Source: Erysipelothrix sp. HDW6C (GTDB taxonomy: Bacteria > Bacillota_I > Bacilli_A > Erysipelotrichales > Erysipelotrichaceae). Taken from it: DNA of 64,000 nucleotides. Made by a program: the position numbers and the translations under genes. Positions 25,273-33,165 of the stretch are shown here, piece by piece. The stretch is from contig NZ_CP049861.1 of assembly GCF_011299615.1 (NCBI RefSeq), positions 1,612,001 through 1,676,000 of the forward strand, in the 5' to 3' direction. The notes beneath the pieces were generated by a model. That model had not been told where the DNA came from. It did not search any database and was given only the letters and a program-made list of their open reading frames with translations. Each line of letters starts with the position of its first letter. The first letter of the stretch is position 1.

Positions 25273-27780
25273 TTAATCCTCCAACCAACTGGTCCCAACA
25301 CTTACGGAGACCTTCATTGGAATTGGCCAATCAACAACTTTTTCCATCACATCTGTCATCAGCTCTGTGACACGGTCCAATTCATCTTCAACAACATCAA
25401 ATACAAGCTCATCATGAACTTGCAATATCATGGATGATTTTAGATTGTTTGCTTTCAAAGCTTTATTTGCTTCGATCATCGCCATTTTTATAATGTCCGC
25501 TGCAGTTCCTTGAATGGGTGCGTTCATTGCCGCGCGTTTTCCAAACTCACTCACAGCACGGTTTTTGTCGTGAATTTCTGGAATATAACGTCGTCGCCCA
25601 AAGAACGTTGTTACGTATCCATCAATTTCACAGTTGGAAATCACAGTATCCATATATTTTTGAATGTTTGGATAGACTTCGTTATAGCGTTCAATAAATG
25701 ATGCTGCATCTTTAACAGAAATATCCAATTGTTTCGACAACCCAAACGAGGAAATCCCGTAAACAATTCCAAAGTTTACAGACTTCGCCTGACGACGCAT
25801 ATTGCTATTCACTTGATCAACACCAAATATCTCTTGGGCAGTTGATGTATGAATATCAAGATTTTCATTAAACGAGGCCATCATTTTCGCTTCATCTGCA
25901 AGATAGGATAAAACGCGCAACTCAATTTGTGAATAGTCAATGGATACAAGTTTGCGGCCAGGACTGGCAACGAATGCACCACGCACGGCACGGCCTTCTT
26001 CATCACGAACCGAAATATTTTGCAAATTGGGATCACTGGATGATAATCGACCAGTTTGTGTCGCGTGTTGATTGAAGGTTGTATGAATTCGACCATCTTC
26101 ATGTATATGTTTGGTAAGTCCTACAGCATACGTACTGTAAAGTTTTTGATATTTTCGATATTCAAGTATGGGTGCAATGATTGGATGAGCACCAACAAGA
26201 CCTTCAAGGACATCCACTGCCGTTGAACGTTTCTTCTTGGTTGGCAACTTCAGGTTATCAAACAACATCTCGCCCAATTGTTTGGGTGAGTTGATATTAA
26301 ACTCTTGACCCGCTTCAGCAAAAATAATCTCACTTAGACGTGTAATTTTCTCCGATGTTTCCGCAGCTATGCGGTCTAAAACGGAGCGATCAACACAAAT
26401 CCCCAAATGCTCACACTCTGCAAGTATTGGGACTAATGGACGTTCAATATCATTATAGATACTCAAAACATTTTCTTTGATCGCAATGTCTTTCAGATTA
26501 TCAAAAAGTTGCGGTAATGCCCCAACGACAGCACAGCCATTTTCGATGCCTTCATATTGCTCAAACCAAATATTGTACTCATCTTTTAAACGATCCAATG
26601 TTGTGGTCGATGAATTATTAATGAACGCTAATAAAAGCACGTCATCAAACTTTTGATTTACAGGAATATTATGCGCCATTGCAAAACGATACATAACCTT
26701 TGTGGACGCCATCAAAATTTGTTTTGTGCGGCTGAGTAAGGCATGGAAATGCGGATCCAATATCATCTCTGGAAGTGTTAAATAAGCATACTCACCGGAT
26801 TTGTGAAGCGTAACACCTTGTAGACTTCCCTTTTTATCGAGGTCAGCAAGCAATGTAACATCACCATCAATCCATGACGCATCAAAATCAATCAACTTAA
26901 TATCCTCTTTTACAACTTCAACAATTTCATAATCATCAACAATCAATGAATTCATGTCGTATTTACGGTAAAATGCATTTAATGAAGGATCGGGGATTTC
27001 ATATTTGATTGTATCGATTTGGAGGTCATTGGGGACATCGGTATGAATCTTAGCAAGCTTGTAGGATAGGATTGCCTGTTCTTCATAAGCTCGCAAGTTA
27101 TCACCCATCTTCCCTTTTATCTCATCCTTATGAGCATAAAGATTTTCGAAAGTACCGTATTCAGTAATGAGTTTTAATGCAGTTTTCTCTCCAATTGAAG
27201 GGACACCGGGAATATTATCACTTGTATCTCCCTGAAGTGCTTTTACATCAACAATTTGTGATGGCGTCAAGCCCATCTCTTCCCGAAGGGTTGCTACGTC
27301 CATAAGTTTAAGATCCGTGATCCCTTTTTTCATAAGCAACACATCAACATTGGTATCAATGAGTTGCAACATGTCACGATCACTGGTTAGGATTTCAACT
27401 TTTGTATCCGCAAATTGATGTGACAATGTACCAATAACATCGTCAGCCTCATAGCCACTGATTTCATAGCGTCTTAATGGGTAGGCATCCAAGAATTCAC
27501 GAACCAGTGCAAACTGAGAAACGAGTTCTTGATCGACTTCTTTACGTGTTCCTTTATACTCATCAAACATATCGTGGCGGAAAGTCTTGTCTTTTGTATC
27601 AAAGGCAACCAAAATGTGCGTTGGTTGGATTAATTCTATTGCTTTGGTTAGCATGGTTGAAAAACCATACACCGCATTGGTAACAACTCCAGTTGATGAG
27701 GTCATATAGCCGCGTGATAACGTGCCATAGTAAGCTCGAAATAGCATCGAGTTTCCGTCAATTAGTAGTAATTTATTCAT
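25273..27780 (-). CDS. polA: DNA polymerase I
   Basis: 835 residues. The 5'-3' exonuclease domain (about 1-290; LIDGNSMLFRAYYG, DKTFRHDMFDEYKGTR, DVKALQGDTSDNIPGVPSIGEKTA) and the polymerase domain (DYSQIELRVLS, RRQAKSVNFGIVYGISSFGL, LQVHDELVFDV) are complete. The middle 3'-5' exonuclease region lacks a recognisable DEDD set, as is common in Gram-positive PolA, so proofreading is unlikely. It functions in Okazaki fragment processing and repair. Operon order polA-mutM-coaE-dnaB-dnaI is a standard Bacillota arrangement. Confidence 0.97.
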   Translation of the reverse strand: MNKLLLIDGNSMLFRAYYGTLSRGYMTSSTGVVTNAVYGFSTMLTKAIELIQPTHILVAFDTKDKTFRHDMFDEYKGTRKEVDQELVSQFALVREFLDAYPLRRYEISGYEADDVIGTLSHQFADTKVEILTSDRDMLQLIDTNVDVLLMKKGITDLKLMDVATLREEMGLTPSQIVDVKALQGDTSDNIPGVPSIGEKTALKLITEYGTFENLYAHKDEIKGKMGDNLRAYEEQAILSYKLAKIHTDVPNDLQIDTIKYEIPDPSLNAFYRKYDMNSLIVDDYEIVEVVKEDIKLIDFDASWIDGDVTLLADLDKKGSLQGVTLHKSGEYAYLTLPEMILDPHFHALLSRTKQILMASTKVMYRFAMAHNIPVNQKFDDVLLLAFINNSSTTTLDRLKDEYNIWFEQYEGIENGCAVVGALPQLFDNLKDIAIKENVLSIYNDIERPLVPILAECEHLGICVDRSVLDRIAAETSEKITRLSEIIFAEAGQEFNINSPKQLGEMLFDNLKLPTKKKRSTAVDVLEGLVGAHPIIAPILEYRKYQKLYSTYAVGLTKHIHEDGRIHTTFNQHATQTGRLSSSDPNLQNISVRDEEGRAVRGAFVASPGRKLVSIDYSQIELRVLSYLADEAKMMASFNENLDIHTSTAQEIFGVDQVNSNMRRQAKSVNFGIVYGISSFGLSKQLDISVKDAASFIERYNEVYPNIQKYMDTVISNCEIDGYVTTFFGRRRYIPEIHDKNRAVSEFGKRAAMNAPIQGTAADIIKMAMIEANKALKANNLKSSMILQVHDELVFDVVEDELDRVTELMTDVMEKVVDWPIPMKVSVSVGTSWLED

Positions 27781-27812: not shown

Positions 27813-27844
27813 CCCTTGAGGTTATCGATGCATCGATTCAAGGG
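27813..27844 (-). terminator. Terminator overlapping the end of the binding-lipoprotein gene
   Basis: The minus strand CCCTTGA/TCAAGGG stem encloses an inner hairpin TCGATGCATCGA and is followed by TTTTCTTTC. The 5' arm is in the last codons of the gene. Confidence 0.75.
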
Positions 27845-28790
27845 CTTCTAAGTTCTGATACATTTTTATGATGTAATCAAATTGTTCCTCTACATCTTTA
27901 TCACTAAGCGTATAAAGATTGCTGAGTTTGATTTCTTGTAATTTTAATTCAGTTTTAAGTTGATTGTATAATTTGATTTGATCTTCACTCATGCCTTCTT
28001 CATAGGCAATGAATTTTACACCATCTTGTTGGATTCGTGTACGTATATCATTTAACATTGCCTCATTTGGCAATACACCATATTTAGAAAGCGAAACAGG
28101 ATATACAGCAATCCCAAAACTGCGTTGCCAGTTTCCGAATGATGGGGTCATGGTAACAATTTTGTACTCTTTCCCATTTGAACGAATCTTTTGGTAATCG
28201 GCTTGTAAATTTGTCAGTTCGACTTCCAACGCAGCAAAACGATCTTCAAATTGTTGCGCATCATCGGGATACTTTTCAATGAGCCAGTCTTTAATGCTGC
28301 GCCCCATTGATGTCATTGCTCCGGGATCCATCCATAAGAATGGATCTTTTTCATAGGTATCTACTGATTTGAAATTTGCAGTATCATAGTATGGTGACTC
28401 TAAGGTATGTTTTGAACCATCAACCTCAACCGTTGTATAACGATTGAATGTGTACAAGGATGAACGTTCTGCAAGATCAAACAGTTCAATTGAACGTTTA
28501 CTGTCAGATAACTCATCACGATACAACTCCCAATAGGGTTGCAGTTCATTGATATAGAATACGACATCCGCATTCGCAAGAACATCGGCATAATCATCAC
28601 GGACAGTACTTGTCTGTGGATTGGCGCCAACATCAAGACGCTCAATATTGACGCGGTCTCCAGCTAAGGCTCTTACAAGGTATTCAACAGGATAACTTGT
28701 GACCACAACATTCTTATTTTTGGGCACACAGCCTGTTAATGTTAAGAGCAGTACCGTAACTGCCATGATACTCGTAACAAATCGTTTCAT
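27822..28790 (-). CDS. Orphan cluster A-I (ZnuA/PsaA-like) solute-binding lipoprotein without metal ligands
   Basis: 322 residues. A signal peptide with lipobox LTGC (Cys21) precedes a cluster A-I fold: VVVTSYPVEYLVRALAGDRVNIERL, then GANPQTSTV, DPFLWMDP and MTPSFGNWQRSFG. In zinc/manganese receptors these three sites carry histidines (PH.., DPHxW, SHxAF). Here they are Q59, F151 and about T215. No ATPase or permease gene is adjacent. It may bind another ligand or act as a regulatory or structural surface protein. Downstream of an AI-2E permease gene in the same direction. Confidence 0.82.
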   Translation of the reverse strand: MKRFVTSIMAVTVLLLTLTGCVPKNKNVVVTSYPVEYLVRALAGDRVNIERLDVGANPQTSTVRDDYADVLANADVVFYINELQPYWELYRDELSDSKRSIELFDLAERSSLYTFNRYTTVEVDGSKHTLESPYYDTANFKSVDTYEKDPFLWMDPGAMTSMGRSIKDWLIEKYPDDAQQFEDRFAALEVELTNLQADYQKIRSNGKEYKIVTMTPSFGNWQRSFGIAVYPVSLSKYGVLPNEAMLNDIRTRIQQDGVKFIAYEEGMSEDQIKLYNQLKTELKLQEIKLSNLYTLSDKDVEEQFDYIIKMYQNLEALESMHR

Positions 28791-28807: not shown

Positions 28808-29908
28808 TTAGTTAGTCTCTTCAGATTCTAGTTTCCAACCATCTTTACGTAAGTAATAAACAGCACGGATTGAGAAATAAATCGGCATCGAGAGAAGAAT
28901 CCCTACAAAGCCAAATAATGCACTGGATGCAAAGAATGCAAACAGCGACGATAACGGATCAATCTTATCGCGCTTGGAATAGACCATCGGTGTGATAACA
29001 TAGTTATCGACATTCGACAGGATTACCAATCCAACCGTAAGTGCAATCACTCGGGACGGTGGCAAGGTTAAGGAAGTCAAGACTCCCAGTATTTGAATGG
29101 ACATGGGTCCAATATAAGGAATCAAAAGGGCGAATGAAGCCATGACACCTAAAACCAATGCATAATTATGACCAATGACAGAATACAGCAAACTATACTC
29201 GACAAACGTAATAACCATGATAACAATCAATGACTGTAGATATTGTAACACAGCACGGTTAATTACTACGATAGAATTTCCCAATTTTGGCGAAATTGCA
29301 TTGGCTCCGCGAAGTATTTTCGCAGTAATATCTTCATAATCAAAAATACAATACAATCCAATAACCAATGAGAATAAACTTGTTGTTAGTATGCCAATGA
29401 GTTGACCAATAAACTGTGATGCAATTGTAGGAATTGTTGGAATGCTTCCAATGAGTCCCTTCATCATTTTTACAGCTTCATTAAAGAGATCGTTAACCCA
29501 TGGTTCAGGCGTACCATTCGTAAACTCAGTATACATTTCATAGAGTTTTTGAATGCCATCAACACTGGAATTAATGATGGTTGTAATGTCGGTTGCTAAT
29601 TTTGGAACAATCGAAGAGAACAACAAGATAACTAAGAAAACAAAGACAAGCAATGTTACGGGAACAACAATTTGCCGTTTGATCTTATAACGCTCGAAAT
29701 ACTTTGTTATCGGGTGCAGAATATAGGCAATACCAAACCCAATTACAAAGGGCAACATAATTCCCTTTACTGTAGTGTATATCGACGACCATATACTCGA
29801 GGTAAGCGTTAGTAAATAAATAATAACCAACGTCATGATAATCATTAATAAGCGTCGTATTGATACATTCCGATGCAAGAAATTACTGATTTTTTTTGGA
29901 ACACTCAT
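28808..29908 (-). CDS. AI-2E family (PerM/YtvI-type) permease
   Basis: 366 residues with about seven hydrophobic segments. FVIGFGIAYILHPITKYFER near the N-terminus and ALLIPYIGPMSIQILGVL near the C-terminus are typical of the AI-2E transporter superfamily. The transported substrate is not predictable from sequence; members include autoinducer-2 exporters and cation/proton antiporters. The start has GTGGAGGGGTACT. It lies between mreD and the orphan binding protein with 12- and 17-nt gaps, so they may form one transcript. Confidence 0.88.
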   Translation of the reverse strand: MSVPKKISNFLHRNVSIRRLLMIIMTLVIIYLLTLTSSIWSSIYTTVKGIMLPFVIGFGIAYILHPITKYFERYKIKRQIVVPVTLLVFVFLVILLFSSIVPKLATDITTIINSSVDGIQKLYEMYTEFTNGTPEPWVNDLFNEAVKMMKGLIGSIPTIPTIASQFIGQLIGILTTSLFSLVIGLYCIFDYEDITAKILRGANAISPKLGNSIVVINRAVLQYLQSLIVIMVITFVEYSLLYSVIGHNYALVLGVMASFALLIPYIGPMSIQILGVLTSLTLPPSRVIALTVGLVILSNVDNYVITPMVYSKRDKIDPLSSLFAFFASSALFGFVGILLSMPIYFSIRAVYYLRKDGWKLESEETN

Positions 29909-29920
29909 AGTACCCCTCCA

Positions 29921-30451
29921 CTAACGCATGTAAACATTTTGTGCGCGTTTTAATATTTGTTTATGCATTACATTATAGCCATATCTTACCACAGGTATGA
30001 GGGCTATGTTTCCCAGTACGACCCAGAAAATGCGCGTTGACATAAACTGAGCCAAGGATTGATTGAATCCCTTTAAGAAATAGATTAAGACAAACGTTAT
30101 AATTTCTTTCACGAAAATCGCAATAATTACCATAACCACAAACTCAAGGGCGGTTGTACCAATATGGCGATCCCATAGACGAACCATAACCACTGTAACT
30201 GTGTATGCAATGAAGAATATTGGAAATGAAGCAATGTGGTTCAAGTCCATCCATATCCCAAGCAGTCCCGCTTTGATGATCGTCTCTTCACGAGAGTCGT
30301 TTTGTGTCAGGAGTAAAATGGCCATAAATGCTAAGTTACTGATAAATGTTATATGTGACCAGGCAAACTGACGAAACACTGCATTAATGATTGAATCAAG
30401 CAACAACATTACGACGACATAGGCGAAGTGTGCAAAACGAATGGTTCTCAT
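29921..30451 (-). CDS. mreD: Rod-shape protein MreD
   Basis: 176 residues, about five transmembrane helices, with the MreD family's small hydrophobic architecture and LLGIWMDLNHIASFPIFFIAYTVT in the middle. It belongs to the elongasome that positions peripheral cell-wall synthesis. It overlaps mreC by an ATGA junction, which supports the call strongly because the sequence family itself is poorly conserved. Confidence 0.88.
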   Translation of the reverse strand: MRTIRFAHFAYVVVMLLLDSIINAVFRQFAWSHITFISNLAFMAILLLTQNDSREETIIKAGLLGIWMDLNHIASFPIFFIAYTVTVVMVRLWDRHIGTTALEFVVMVIIAIFVKEIITFVLIYFLKGFNQSLAQFMSTRIFWVVLGNIALIPVVRYGYNVMHKQILKRAQNVYMR

Positions 30452-31287
30452 GGTCGTTTCACCACCGCAATATAACCGATATTATCAAAGTTTACACTTG
30501 ATTTAACATACACTTCAACACCCGTTCCTTCGGATATATTTTTGACCGATTCGACTTTTCCAACAAGCAAGCCTCGTGGATACACTCCCGATCCTCCTGA
30601 AGTTGACACAAGCATATCTGCTGTGATTGAGCTTGTTGTTTCAAGCAATCTAACCGTAAACACGCCTTTTTCATGGTTATAGGATTCCAAAATACCAGGA
30701 ACATACTCGCCCGGTGCAACTTCAATGCTTACAGATACGCGCGAATTGTCATCATTGGCAACAAGGAGCGCAACTACAGCACTGTCATCATTGACGTCAA
30801 TAACGCGTCCAATAACGCCATGGGATGTCATCACACCATCATTAACTGCGACGCCTTGATTGCGTCCAATATCGATGTTCACAACACTGTCCCATTTTTC
30901 ACTGGAACGGTTGCTAACCATCCCTTTGATAAGTTCATTTTCTGTATAAAGACTGTTAAGTCCATTAAGTTCTTTAAGTTCATCACGCTCCGCTTCAAGA
31001 GCGCGAATGTATGTGTTCATGTGTGCCGCAGCATCCAGTTCTTCACGCAGGCGGTCGTTTTCATAACGCACATCCCACATCGTTGCGACATCGTTTGTAA
31101 AATTGCTGACTGTCTCGATTGGATAATCAATTAAGCCATAACGCAACATTGATATGAAACCAAAGAAGTTTCGGTCGACACTTTGATAAAAGGCTGAATT
31201 CTTCACGAAATTCATCCCTAAAAGTGCAACGATAATTGTTATTAAGAGTCCAAGAAGGACACGTTTAAATCTGCTTTTCTGTTTCAT
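30448..31287 (-). CDS. mreC: Rod-shape protein MreC
   Basis: 279 residues: N-terminal membrane anchor (about 8-27), coiled coil (about 70-110; ENDRLREELDAAAHMN), then the double beta-barrel domain with VVNIDIGRNQGVAVNDGVMTSHG and STSGGSGVYPRGLLVGKV motifs. It scaffolds the elongasome on the outer face of the membrane. The radC-mreC-mreD order is conserved in Bacillota, although mreB is not in this window. Confidence 0.95.
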   Translation of the reverse strand: MKQKSRFKRVLLGLLITIIVALLGMNFVKNSAFYQSVDRNFFGFISMLRYGLIDYPIETVSNFTNDVATMWDVRYENDRLREELDAAAHMNTYIRALEAERDELKELNGLNSLYTENELIKGMVSNRSSEKWDSVVNIDIGRNQGVAVNDGVMTSHGVIGRVIDVNDDSAVVALLVANDDNSRVSVSIEVAPGEYVPGILESYNHEKGVFTVRLLETTSSITADMLVSTSGGSGVYPRGLLVGKVESVKNISEGTGVEVYVKSSVNFDNIGYIAVVKRP

Positions 31288-32084: not shown

Positions 32085-32882
32085 CTAATCAAGAACTGAT
32101 GTTACAGCAGGAGCAAATTTCTCTGCGACATACTTACGGACTGATTCATCTTCGAAAGCTTTTAAAATGGCTTTTGTCTTATCAGACTCTTCATTCCCAC
32201 CTTTTACAGCAACCACATTCACGATTTCCGCAATTTTCTCGGGAGAAATTGTTTCCGCTTGTAAAGCGCGATCGGTTACACCTGATGATAATGCATAGTT
32301 ACCATTTAAGATTACATACTCAGAATCATTGATCAATGCCGCGATTCCATCACTTTGAATTTCTTTAATTGTAATGTTTTTATTGAACTTTACAATATCT
32401 TTTTGTGTTGAAGTATCACGATTTTCATTGAGCTCAATCCAACCAAGTTCTTCAAGCAACTTTAACGCACGGGGTAAGTTTGTTGCATCATCTGGCACAA
32501 GTACTGTATCACCATCCGCAACATCTGTTAATGCCGTCTTTTTACCACTATAGATTGCAATGGGCTCATAGTGAACTTTCAATACTGGAACCACATTCGT
32601 ACCATTTGCTTCATTGAAGTCTTCAAGATACGGTATGTGTTGGAAGTAGTTTGCATCCAAGCTGCCTGCATTCACTTCTGTATTGGGAATCTTGTAGTCA
32701 TCAAATACTACAACTTCAAGTGTATACCCTTGTGCTTCTAAGGGACCTTTCAGTTGATTTAATATCTCTGCATGCGGTAAGGGTGTTGCCCCTATCTTGA
32801 TAACTTTATCATCACTCGATTGCTTTGCGCCACACCCCACCAATACCAGTAATGCAGCCAATACACTTAACACTTTTTTCAT
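32085..32882 (-). CDS. metQ: MetQ-type methionine-binding lipoprotein
   Basis: 265 residues. Lipobox LVGC (Cys18), then KIGATPLPHAEIL, FDDYKIPN, LDANYFQHIPYL and LKVHYEPIAIYSGK match the NlpA/MetQ family that delivers methionine to MetNI. No metN or metI is adjacent, so the ATPase and permease must be elsewhere or shared. ATG 32882 follows AAAGAGGAGGAAAAGAAT. A methionine-type T-box precedes it. Confidence 0.93.
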   Translation of the reverse strand: MKKVLSVLAALLVLVGCGAKQSSDDKVIKIGATPLPHAEILNQLKGPLEAQGYTLEVVVFDDYKIPNTEVNAGSLDANYFQHIPYLEDFNEANGTNVVPVLKVHYEPIAIYSGKKTALTDVADGDTVLVPDDATNLPRALKLLEELGWIELNENRDTSTQKDIVKFNKNITIKEIQSDGIAALINDSEYVILNGNYALSSGVTDRALQAETISPEKIAEIVNVVAVKGGNEESDKTKAILKAFEDESVRKYVAEKFAPAVTSVLD

Positions 32883-32920
32883 ATTCTTTTCCTCCTCTTT
32901 CGTCTCAAAAATATAAAAAA

Positions 32921-33165
32921 CGCCCATCCCTAAGGATGAGCGTGCTCATGTTACCACCTTAATTTATCAGCATTTTGCAATACTGACCTTACCGAGTACT
33001 ATCATACTCTGTCGCGTTAACGGGCGATCCCGGTAAAACCTAAACATATGTCTCAGCTTTACAGCTCCAAGGCCATTTTCAAATGATGTTCCCTATCCTT
33101 TTACACCAACCAAGGACTCTCTACAAGTTCGAACCATTCTACTTTCCTTTTCATTGCTTTTCGTA
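32921..33165 (-). promoter_or_regulatory. T-box riboswitch leader (predicted tRNA-Met) of metQ
   Basis: The T-box core AGGTGGTAACATGAGC is at about 32944-32959 on the minus strand. A terminator CGCTCATCC-TTA-GGGATGGGCG (32921-32942) with a T6 run follows. Upstream there is an AGAGAGTCC stretch and a candidate ATG specifier in TTTGAAAATGGCC. Shortage of charged tRNA-Met should raise metQ expression. The overall layout matches the thrS leader. Confidence 0.9.

Follow-up and report, generated by a model that had tools for sequence, protein, structure and literature searches.

The usual annotation of a protein with the ZnuA/TroA fold is that of a zinc or manganese receptor. The gene considered here encodes a lipoprotein of this family whose metal-binding histidines are missing, and it raises the question of which function such a protein serves. 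It lies in a 64-kb stretch of DNA (the window, i.e., the whole stretch analysed) within one contig of a genome of 2.36 Mb.

Gene product and genomic neighbourhood

The gene and the neighbours that matter for the argument are the following:

27822..28790, (-) strand: gene of the metal-site-less ZnuA/TroA-family lipoprotein, 322 aa (open reading frame, lipobox, Pfam, alignment)
28728..28790, (-) strand: signal peptide and lipobox, residues 1-21 (LTGC, Cys21); the Cys is found in 59/59 aligned rows
25273..27780, (-) strand: polA, downstream neighbour, named by reading; 41-nt gap; within 400 nt in 48/59 distinct loci
28808..29908, (-) strand: AI-2E-family membrane protein (PF01594), upstream neighbour; 17-nt gap; direct upstream gene in 13/59
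29921..31287, (-) strand: mreD and mreC, which belong to the same run and are cell-shape genes; MreC is assigned by Pfam, mreD, without a Pfam match, from its size and position

The 322-aa protein begins with a signal peptide closed by the lipobox LTGC, with Cys21, and is predicted to be a Gram-positive lipoprotein. With 116.8 bits against a cut-off of 29 it is a member of the Pfam family ZnuA (PF01297), and its best PDB sequence-profile match is AdcA (4.3e-28). The NCBIfam models of zinc-receptor equivalogs score it well under their cut-offs (AdcA, 66 vs. 700 bits; AztC, 51.6 vs. 350; ZnuA, 33.3 vs. 268). Two AlphaFold models, based on 5 and 6 alignment rows, reach a pLDDT of 63-67, and residues ~291-322 lie below 50. 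VIA-align with the model of pLDDT 66.5 gave Z up to 14.9 and rmsd of 7.8-8.7 among the 50 matches listed; the titles of the 50 matches listed are those of metal-binding receptors of the cluster A-I kind, 8svc being titled only SBP. The 50 matches listed by Foldseek have E-values from 1.9e-14 to 1.7e-10, TM of 0.37-0.40 (by query) and rmsd of 15-19 Å. Given this combination of low TM and high rmsd despite strong E-values, we take the two lobes to be badly placed in the model. Overall, Foldseek, VIA-align and the sequence profile make the fold family clear, but models of this quality do not allow a pocket to be measured.

A preliminary description of this DNA, made from the sequence, had called the cluster A-I scaffold clear and the gene an orphan with no transporter gene beside it. 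The Pfam score and the fold matches agree with the former; as for the latter, the neighbours are the AI-2E-family protein and polA, and no ABC ATPase or permease gene adjoins the metal-site-less gene in the window. Pfam supports the assignment of AI-2E, MreC, RadC and NlpA genes in this neighbourhood. The last of these is a MetQ/NlpA-type lipoprotein gene at 32085-32927 (-) of the window (PF03180, 212 bits), which by reading has no adjacent ABC ATPase or permease gene; the window's genome contains three strong PF03180 genes.

Orthologous loci were collected as 60 rows, one of which proved to be a duplicate (L037 = L043 contig) and was removed, leaving 59. In 48 of the 59 distinct loci (49/60 with the duplicate) polA follows downstream in the same orientation at no more than 400 nt, with a median gap of 36 nt; in the remaining loci it is found further on (2), the contig ends (1) or no polA was detected (8, among them L085, which matched polA separately). 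The upstream neighbour differs between genera. It is of the AI-2E type in 13 loci, of the mreD type in 8 and radC in 5, whereas 4 loci carry singletons and 3 have no upstream gene in the contig; a group present in 6 loci is presumably trmB. A further cluster of upstream genes covers 20 loci; its member in L047, the only one tested, is an M50 peptidase. The L047 run reads MinC_C-like (31.3 bits, just below the cut-off of 33.2), MinD/ParA-like, AI-2E, an M23-domain protein which we take to be SpoIVFA-like, M50, the metal-site-less gene and polA. Genes of radC, mreC, mreD and AI-2E type recur upstream in variable order, together with minC/minD/M50-like genes in the loci read closely; cell-shape genes, where visible, stand ahead of the metal-site-less gene. 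The association with polA may be a matter of positional inertia.

Metal ligands, cleft loops and insert

The zinc ligands of AdcA are His63, His140, His204 and Glu279, according to a published study (PMC7858048). We read the corresponding columns in an alignment of 59 distinct orthologues with 16 canonical receptors. The 59 rows represent 54 of the 106 genomes bearing the gene (see below), plus the window and named records, and cover 32 of the 65 bearing genomes without a strong ABC-3 permease; the other bearing genomes were assigned to the group by similarity. The positions concerned are:

28614..28616, (-) strand: Q59, column of AdcA His63; Q in 52/59 and His in 0/59 distinct rows
28338..28340, (-) strand: F151, column of AdcA His140; mostly hydrophobic, His in 1/59 (L086)
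28146..28148, (-) strand: T215, column of AdcA His204; T in 49 and S in 8 of 59, His in 0
27912..27914, (-) strand: Y293, column of AdcA Glu279; S in 40 and Y in 9 of 59, acidic residues in 0, His in 2 (L045, L050)
28353..28460, (-) strand: insert, residues 111-146, with a predicted beta-hairpin at ~118-131; R117 (58/59), Y135, F140, D144; low model confidence
28122..28154, (-) strand: remodelled cleft loop 213-223, family consensus SMTPSFGNWQK; conservation above the rest of the protein
28065..28100, (-) strand: remodelled cleft loop 231-242, P..LSKYG.LP; S235, G238 and P241 invariant in A1, K/R236 in 57/59

All four canonical ligands are replaced in the window protein, which consequently lacks the set of three His plus Glu/Asp. 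The histidine positions had already been placed at Q59, F151 and about T215, and the alignment with the 16 canonical relatives yields the same residues; Y293 in the Glu279 column extends the described loss of the metal histidines to four ligands of four. In the canonical receptors the three His columns hold His in 16/16, 16/16 and 13/16 rows, while the fourth holds E in 6 and D in 2 of 16, indicating that the alignment is poorer there. The replacing residues are themselves conserved, with Q59 in 52/59 and T/S215 in 57/59 rows. From residue 27 on, no column of the orthologue alignment has a majority of His or Cys, and the mean number of His per protein is 2.1 in the group vs. 10.1 in canonical receptors. 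The window protein has two in total, H128 and H321, and neither is conserved.

A relocation of the site to other His, Cys or acidic ligands was considered and rejected, as there is no conserved His or Cys and no new acid in the ligand columns. Other His/Glu ligands in the site, the observation named beforehand as contradicting a loss, are likewise not seen at the level of sequence. A metal could instead be bound via oxygen ligands (Asp/Glu/Tyr/Thr) in a rebuilt site, and indeed D144, D149, D155, D/E191, E264, D/E270, E281 and D305 are acids conserved in at least 90% of rows. However, D149, D155 and E264 are common in canonical receptors too (13, 9 and 13 of 16), where they lie outside the four ligands, and none of the four ligand columns contains a conserved replacing acid, so that we regard oxygen-mediated metal binding as quite improbable.

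The insert occupies the place of the His-rich loop in canonical receptors (AdcA), and its hairpin is present in both models, at low confidence. New conserved motifs, TPSFGNWQ and SKYGxLP, characterize the two cleft loops, whose conservation exceeds that of the rest of the protein (p 0.0015 for loop 213-223 and p 0.0009 for loop 231-242; sequence-weighted, eight stretches, uncorrected). The other six stretches are not significantly conserved above the rest, including the Q59 loop (p 0.80) and the insert (p 0.92), which makes a single tight rebuilt pocket less likely. The clustering of the new conserved residues at the cleft is suggested by the loops that carry them, as placed in models of mediocre quality (pLDDT 63-67). 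Only R117 (58/59) and K/R236 (57/59) are basic in at least 90% of rows; among the canonical receptors, 12/16 rows are gapped at 117, and position 236 is Ser in 10/16 and Arg in 1.

Distribution, selection and transporter partners

A search of 145 genomes of the family with the window protein gave matches at E 1e-5 in 108. The gene was counted as present where the match fell below 1e-30; G063 and G064, with 1e-7 matches only, were taken as canonical relatives and counted as lacking it, which leaves 106/145 bearing genomes. At E 1e-5, a threshold that admits a few canonical hits too, 44 of the 59 genera of the family sample matched. In an order-wide sample 174/244 genomes matched at 1e-15, and the bearing genomes among the matches listed all belong to the same family. 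This distribution, with 106/145 genomes in the family and the order-wide sample, rules out a one-genome oddity. Three Erysipelothrix records (L035, L036, L038) share the gene order, at 59-66% identity to the window protein, which points to the genus Erysipelothrix for the window and, with it, to Erysipelotrichaceae as the family coded f1; a second, divergent copy (L084) occurs in G008, for which 7% contamination is listed. Among viral contigs there were 139 pattern matches, none of them a relative. In a maximum-likelihood tree of 72 rows, the 30 sampled rows of the group come together as a single clade (100/100), whose stem measures 1.17 changes per column. L143 and L146 (family code f13), which keep His at the three His columns, group weakly beside this clade (73/78) and are possibly its nearest canonical kin.

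In 39 of the 145 genomes no copy of the gene was detected. Of 18 such genomes tested, polA was also unmatched in four (G016, G055, G067, G036), whose absence calls are therefore uninformative; G016 and G055 are listed as 98-99% complete, yet polA is unmatched in them. In 14 polA loci of non-bearing genomes (3.8-5.6 kb each) the group profile matched no ORF at E 1, and on inspection an mreD-sized gene stands directly before polA in 9/14, L209 having no upstream sequence. On a quick polA tree, presence of the gene switches about five times (three or more going by the starred branches), and one clade unites 10 of the 14 genomes that lack it. On the basis of this tree the pattern fits an ancestral gene lost several times, and the 39/145 absences and about five changes mean that the gene is dispensable in some lineages.

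Where the gene is kept, it is constrained. dN/dS was computable in 8 of 10 same-genus pairs and ranges from 0.015 to 0.147 (0.015-0.026 among the closest three same-genus genomes, 0.049-0.147 in five other pairs), by a simple counting estimate and with high dS. By this comparison of sequences the gene is under purifying selection. A decaying former zinc receptor would account for the loss of every ligand and for the absence of a transporter beside the gene, but the frames are intact among the matches listed, some residues are invariant and dN/dS is low. Since, moreover, the losses are common to 59 distinct orthologues, chance or recent decay is unlikely; a recent pseudogene is ruled out by the selection result (dN/dS 0.015-0.147), and the probability left to decay is practically negligible. 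A role in adhesion or host interaction, as in the laminin-binding lipoproteins Lmb/Lbp, would be compatible with the predicted lipid-anchored surface location, and fold relatives are named laminin-binding in the PDB. On the other hand, the retention of the gene is broad (the 44/59 genera at E 1e-5, a few canonical matches included), its neighbours are housekeeping genes and Lmb-type proteins are themselves zinc receptors; we consider such a role improbable.

Cluster A-I receptors dock on ABC-3 permeases, and we surveyed these with PF00950, a match at E of at most 1e-20 being called strong. The window's genome contains four PF01297 genes and three PF00950 permeases. The three permeases are divided between two loci, and both loci include a receptor: the AdcA-like receptor (L001) and the manganese-type receptor (L003; L097) are each accompanied by their own transporter genes. 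An ATPase/permease pair lacking its own receptor, which the preliminary description had proposed to look for, did not turn up among the ABC-3 systems of this genome, and the idea of a displaced receptor of an orphan ABC-3 permease was rejected, as there is no receptor-less PF00950 locus. A further PF01297 gene of the genome (L002, G000:C1:971115-971966) has the canonical His and a His-rich loop and is unlinked in the 3.9 kb read; an unlinked receptor of this type resembles streptococcal AdcAII.

Across the family, strong PF00950 matches occur in 48/145 genomes, 41 with the gene and 7 without it, and in the other 65 of the 106 bearing genomes the survey detected no strong ABC-3 permease. Nine of these 65 have weak PF00950 matches only (above 1e-10), which were taken for other ABC permeases. 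All 65 have a PF01297 count of one, and this lone gene should be the metal-site-less one, which passes the same cut-off. Restricting the count to genomes of at least 95% completeness leaves 43 bearing genomes without a strong ABC-3 permease, 37 of them without any PF00950 match. The pairing of ABC-3 permease and ATPase expected of a cluster A-I receptor is thus seen neither in linkage nor, as far as permeases are concerned, in 65/106 genomes. Nevertheless, the gene and strong ABC-3 permeases co-occur with an odds ratio of 2.9 (p 0.028, uncorrected for kinship), the permease being commoner among bearing genomes, and this positive association argues mildly against complete uncoupling.

A non-exhaustive motif scan detected an ABC-ATPase-like ORF in 1 of 60 loci; in 48 of the 60 the flanks reach 3 kb or more to either side. 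In the exception, L062 (G017), one ABC-ATPase-like gene follows downstream at a distance of 674 nt, and a second one, found by reading and missed by the scan, lies upstream; the polA match of this locus is 5.3 kb from the gene and the locus looks rearranged. Apart from this sole exception in the 60-locus scan, the gene resembles those of the LpqZ/FecB type in not being encoded with a transporter, as is the case in the window. The protein could still be an import receptor for another small molecule, which it would hand to an ABC permease of a different class encoded elsewhere. The two-lobe receptor fold family and the lipobox are retained, two cleft loops of the C-lobe show strong conservation together with a new chemistry, a receptor can work far from its permease gene, and L062 does have ABC-ATPase-like genes nearby. 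Against this stand the single positive locus of the scan and the absence of strong ABC-3 from the survey in 65/106 bearing genomes, and we hold an import function of this kind to be unlikely.

Proposed function and relation to known systems

The lost ligands, the purifying selection, the polA locus and the genomes without strong ABC-3 permeases lead us to infer that the lipoprotein does not capture Zn, Mn or Fe for such a permease; very likely, supplying an ABC-3 importer with metal is not its task. At the outset the protein had been suggested to recognise another ligand or to work at the surface outside transport. The loss of the ligands in 59 rows, the lack of any majority His or Cys and the 65/106 genomes without strong ABC-3 support this suggestion, which is compatible with the tests made, those on transport concerning ABC-3 permeases. 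Probably, we are dealing with an ancient substrate-binding lipoprotein re-purposed for a conserved surface function that involves neither metal nor ABC-3 transport.

As for the nature of this function, the lipid anchor would place the protein on the outer side of the membrane. Q59, T215, N220, W221, Q222, S235, K236, Y237 and perhaps R117 of the insert would make up a rebuilt cleft, to which either an organic ligand of polar or anionic character or a stretch of a partner membrane protein would bind. In place of delivering a substrate, the protein would serve an envelope enzyme as its adaptor or sensor. This envelope-adaptor step is tentative and draws on analogy. Also tentatively, the family may have inherited from its ancestor a cluster A-I receptor already turned into a metal-free "pseudo-receptor", an envelope-morphogenesis factor tied to the mre/min/spoIVF-polA locus. 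To our knowledge, such a conversion would be the first in the metal-receptor lineage.

The analogy comes from the mycobacterial LpqZ and FecB, described in PMC12802301 as orphan receptor-like lipoproteins serving envelope enzymes. The window protein is likewise orphan and receptor-like, its envelope role being proposed here and shown there; LpqZ (ProX-like according to that paper) and FecB belong to other receptor families, and their partners AftA and AftB act in mycobacterial wall synthesis.

The same fold is found in the N-terminal domain of AdcA and in ZnuA zinc receptors (cluster A-I, PF01297; PDB 7jj8, 2o1e, 1pq4), which give the best PDB sequence-profile match of the window protein and are among its best structure matches; the lipobox, too, is shared. 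The differences from AdcA are the replacement of His63, His140, His204 and Glu279, the predicted-hairpin insert in place of the His-rich loop, and the absence of a linked ABC-3 partner, with none strong in 65/106 bearing genomes. The manganese receptors PsaA, MntC and TroA also have the fold in common (PsaA, Z 14.9, rmsd 8.7 over 219 residues), but their sequence similarity to the window protein is lower and their ligands are likewise lost in it.

Another altered metal site is found in ZnuA-family lipoproteins from other families of the class (codes f14, f22), encoded in the six loci examined at a common housekeeping site, between ftsH-like and lysS-like genes (L129, L131, L139, L147, L156, L157), in the run tilS-hpt-ftsH-X-lysS (Pfam-checked in L131, partly in L156). 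Unlike the group studied here, they form a separate clade (14 rows, 100/99) and keep the DPH histidine; the third His is lost and other His recur, e.g., in S-x-H-S. The gene is the sole PF01297 gene of 8 genomes checked, all of which have a strong ABC-3 match elsewhere, and its product is possibly a rewired metal receptor.

A search of the open-licence literature found no paper on the metal-site-less group, and the available parts of two Erysipelothrix proteome/antigen papers (PMC4968806, PMC5266700) name no such protein. What is new here is the clade-wide loss of the metal site together with the new locus, the fold family being already known.

The family includes gut commensals and an animal pathogen. 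In most of its sampled members, a group of proteins misfits the label of zinc or manganese receptor, and PF01297 gene counts overstate the metal-uptake capacity of the bearing genomes. The group offers a clean natural example of a transport receptor turned to another job, and a concrete surface-protein candidate in Erysipelotrichaceae.
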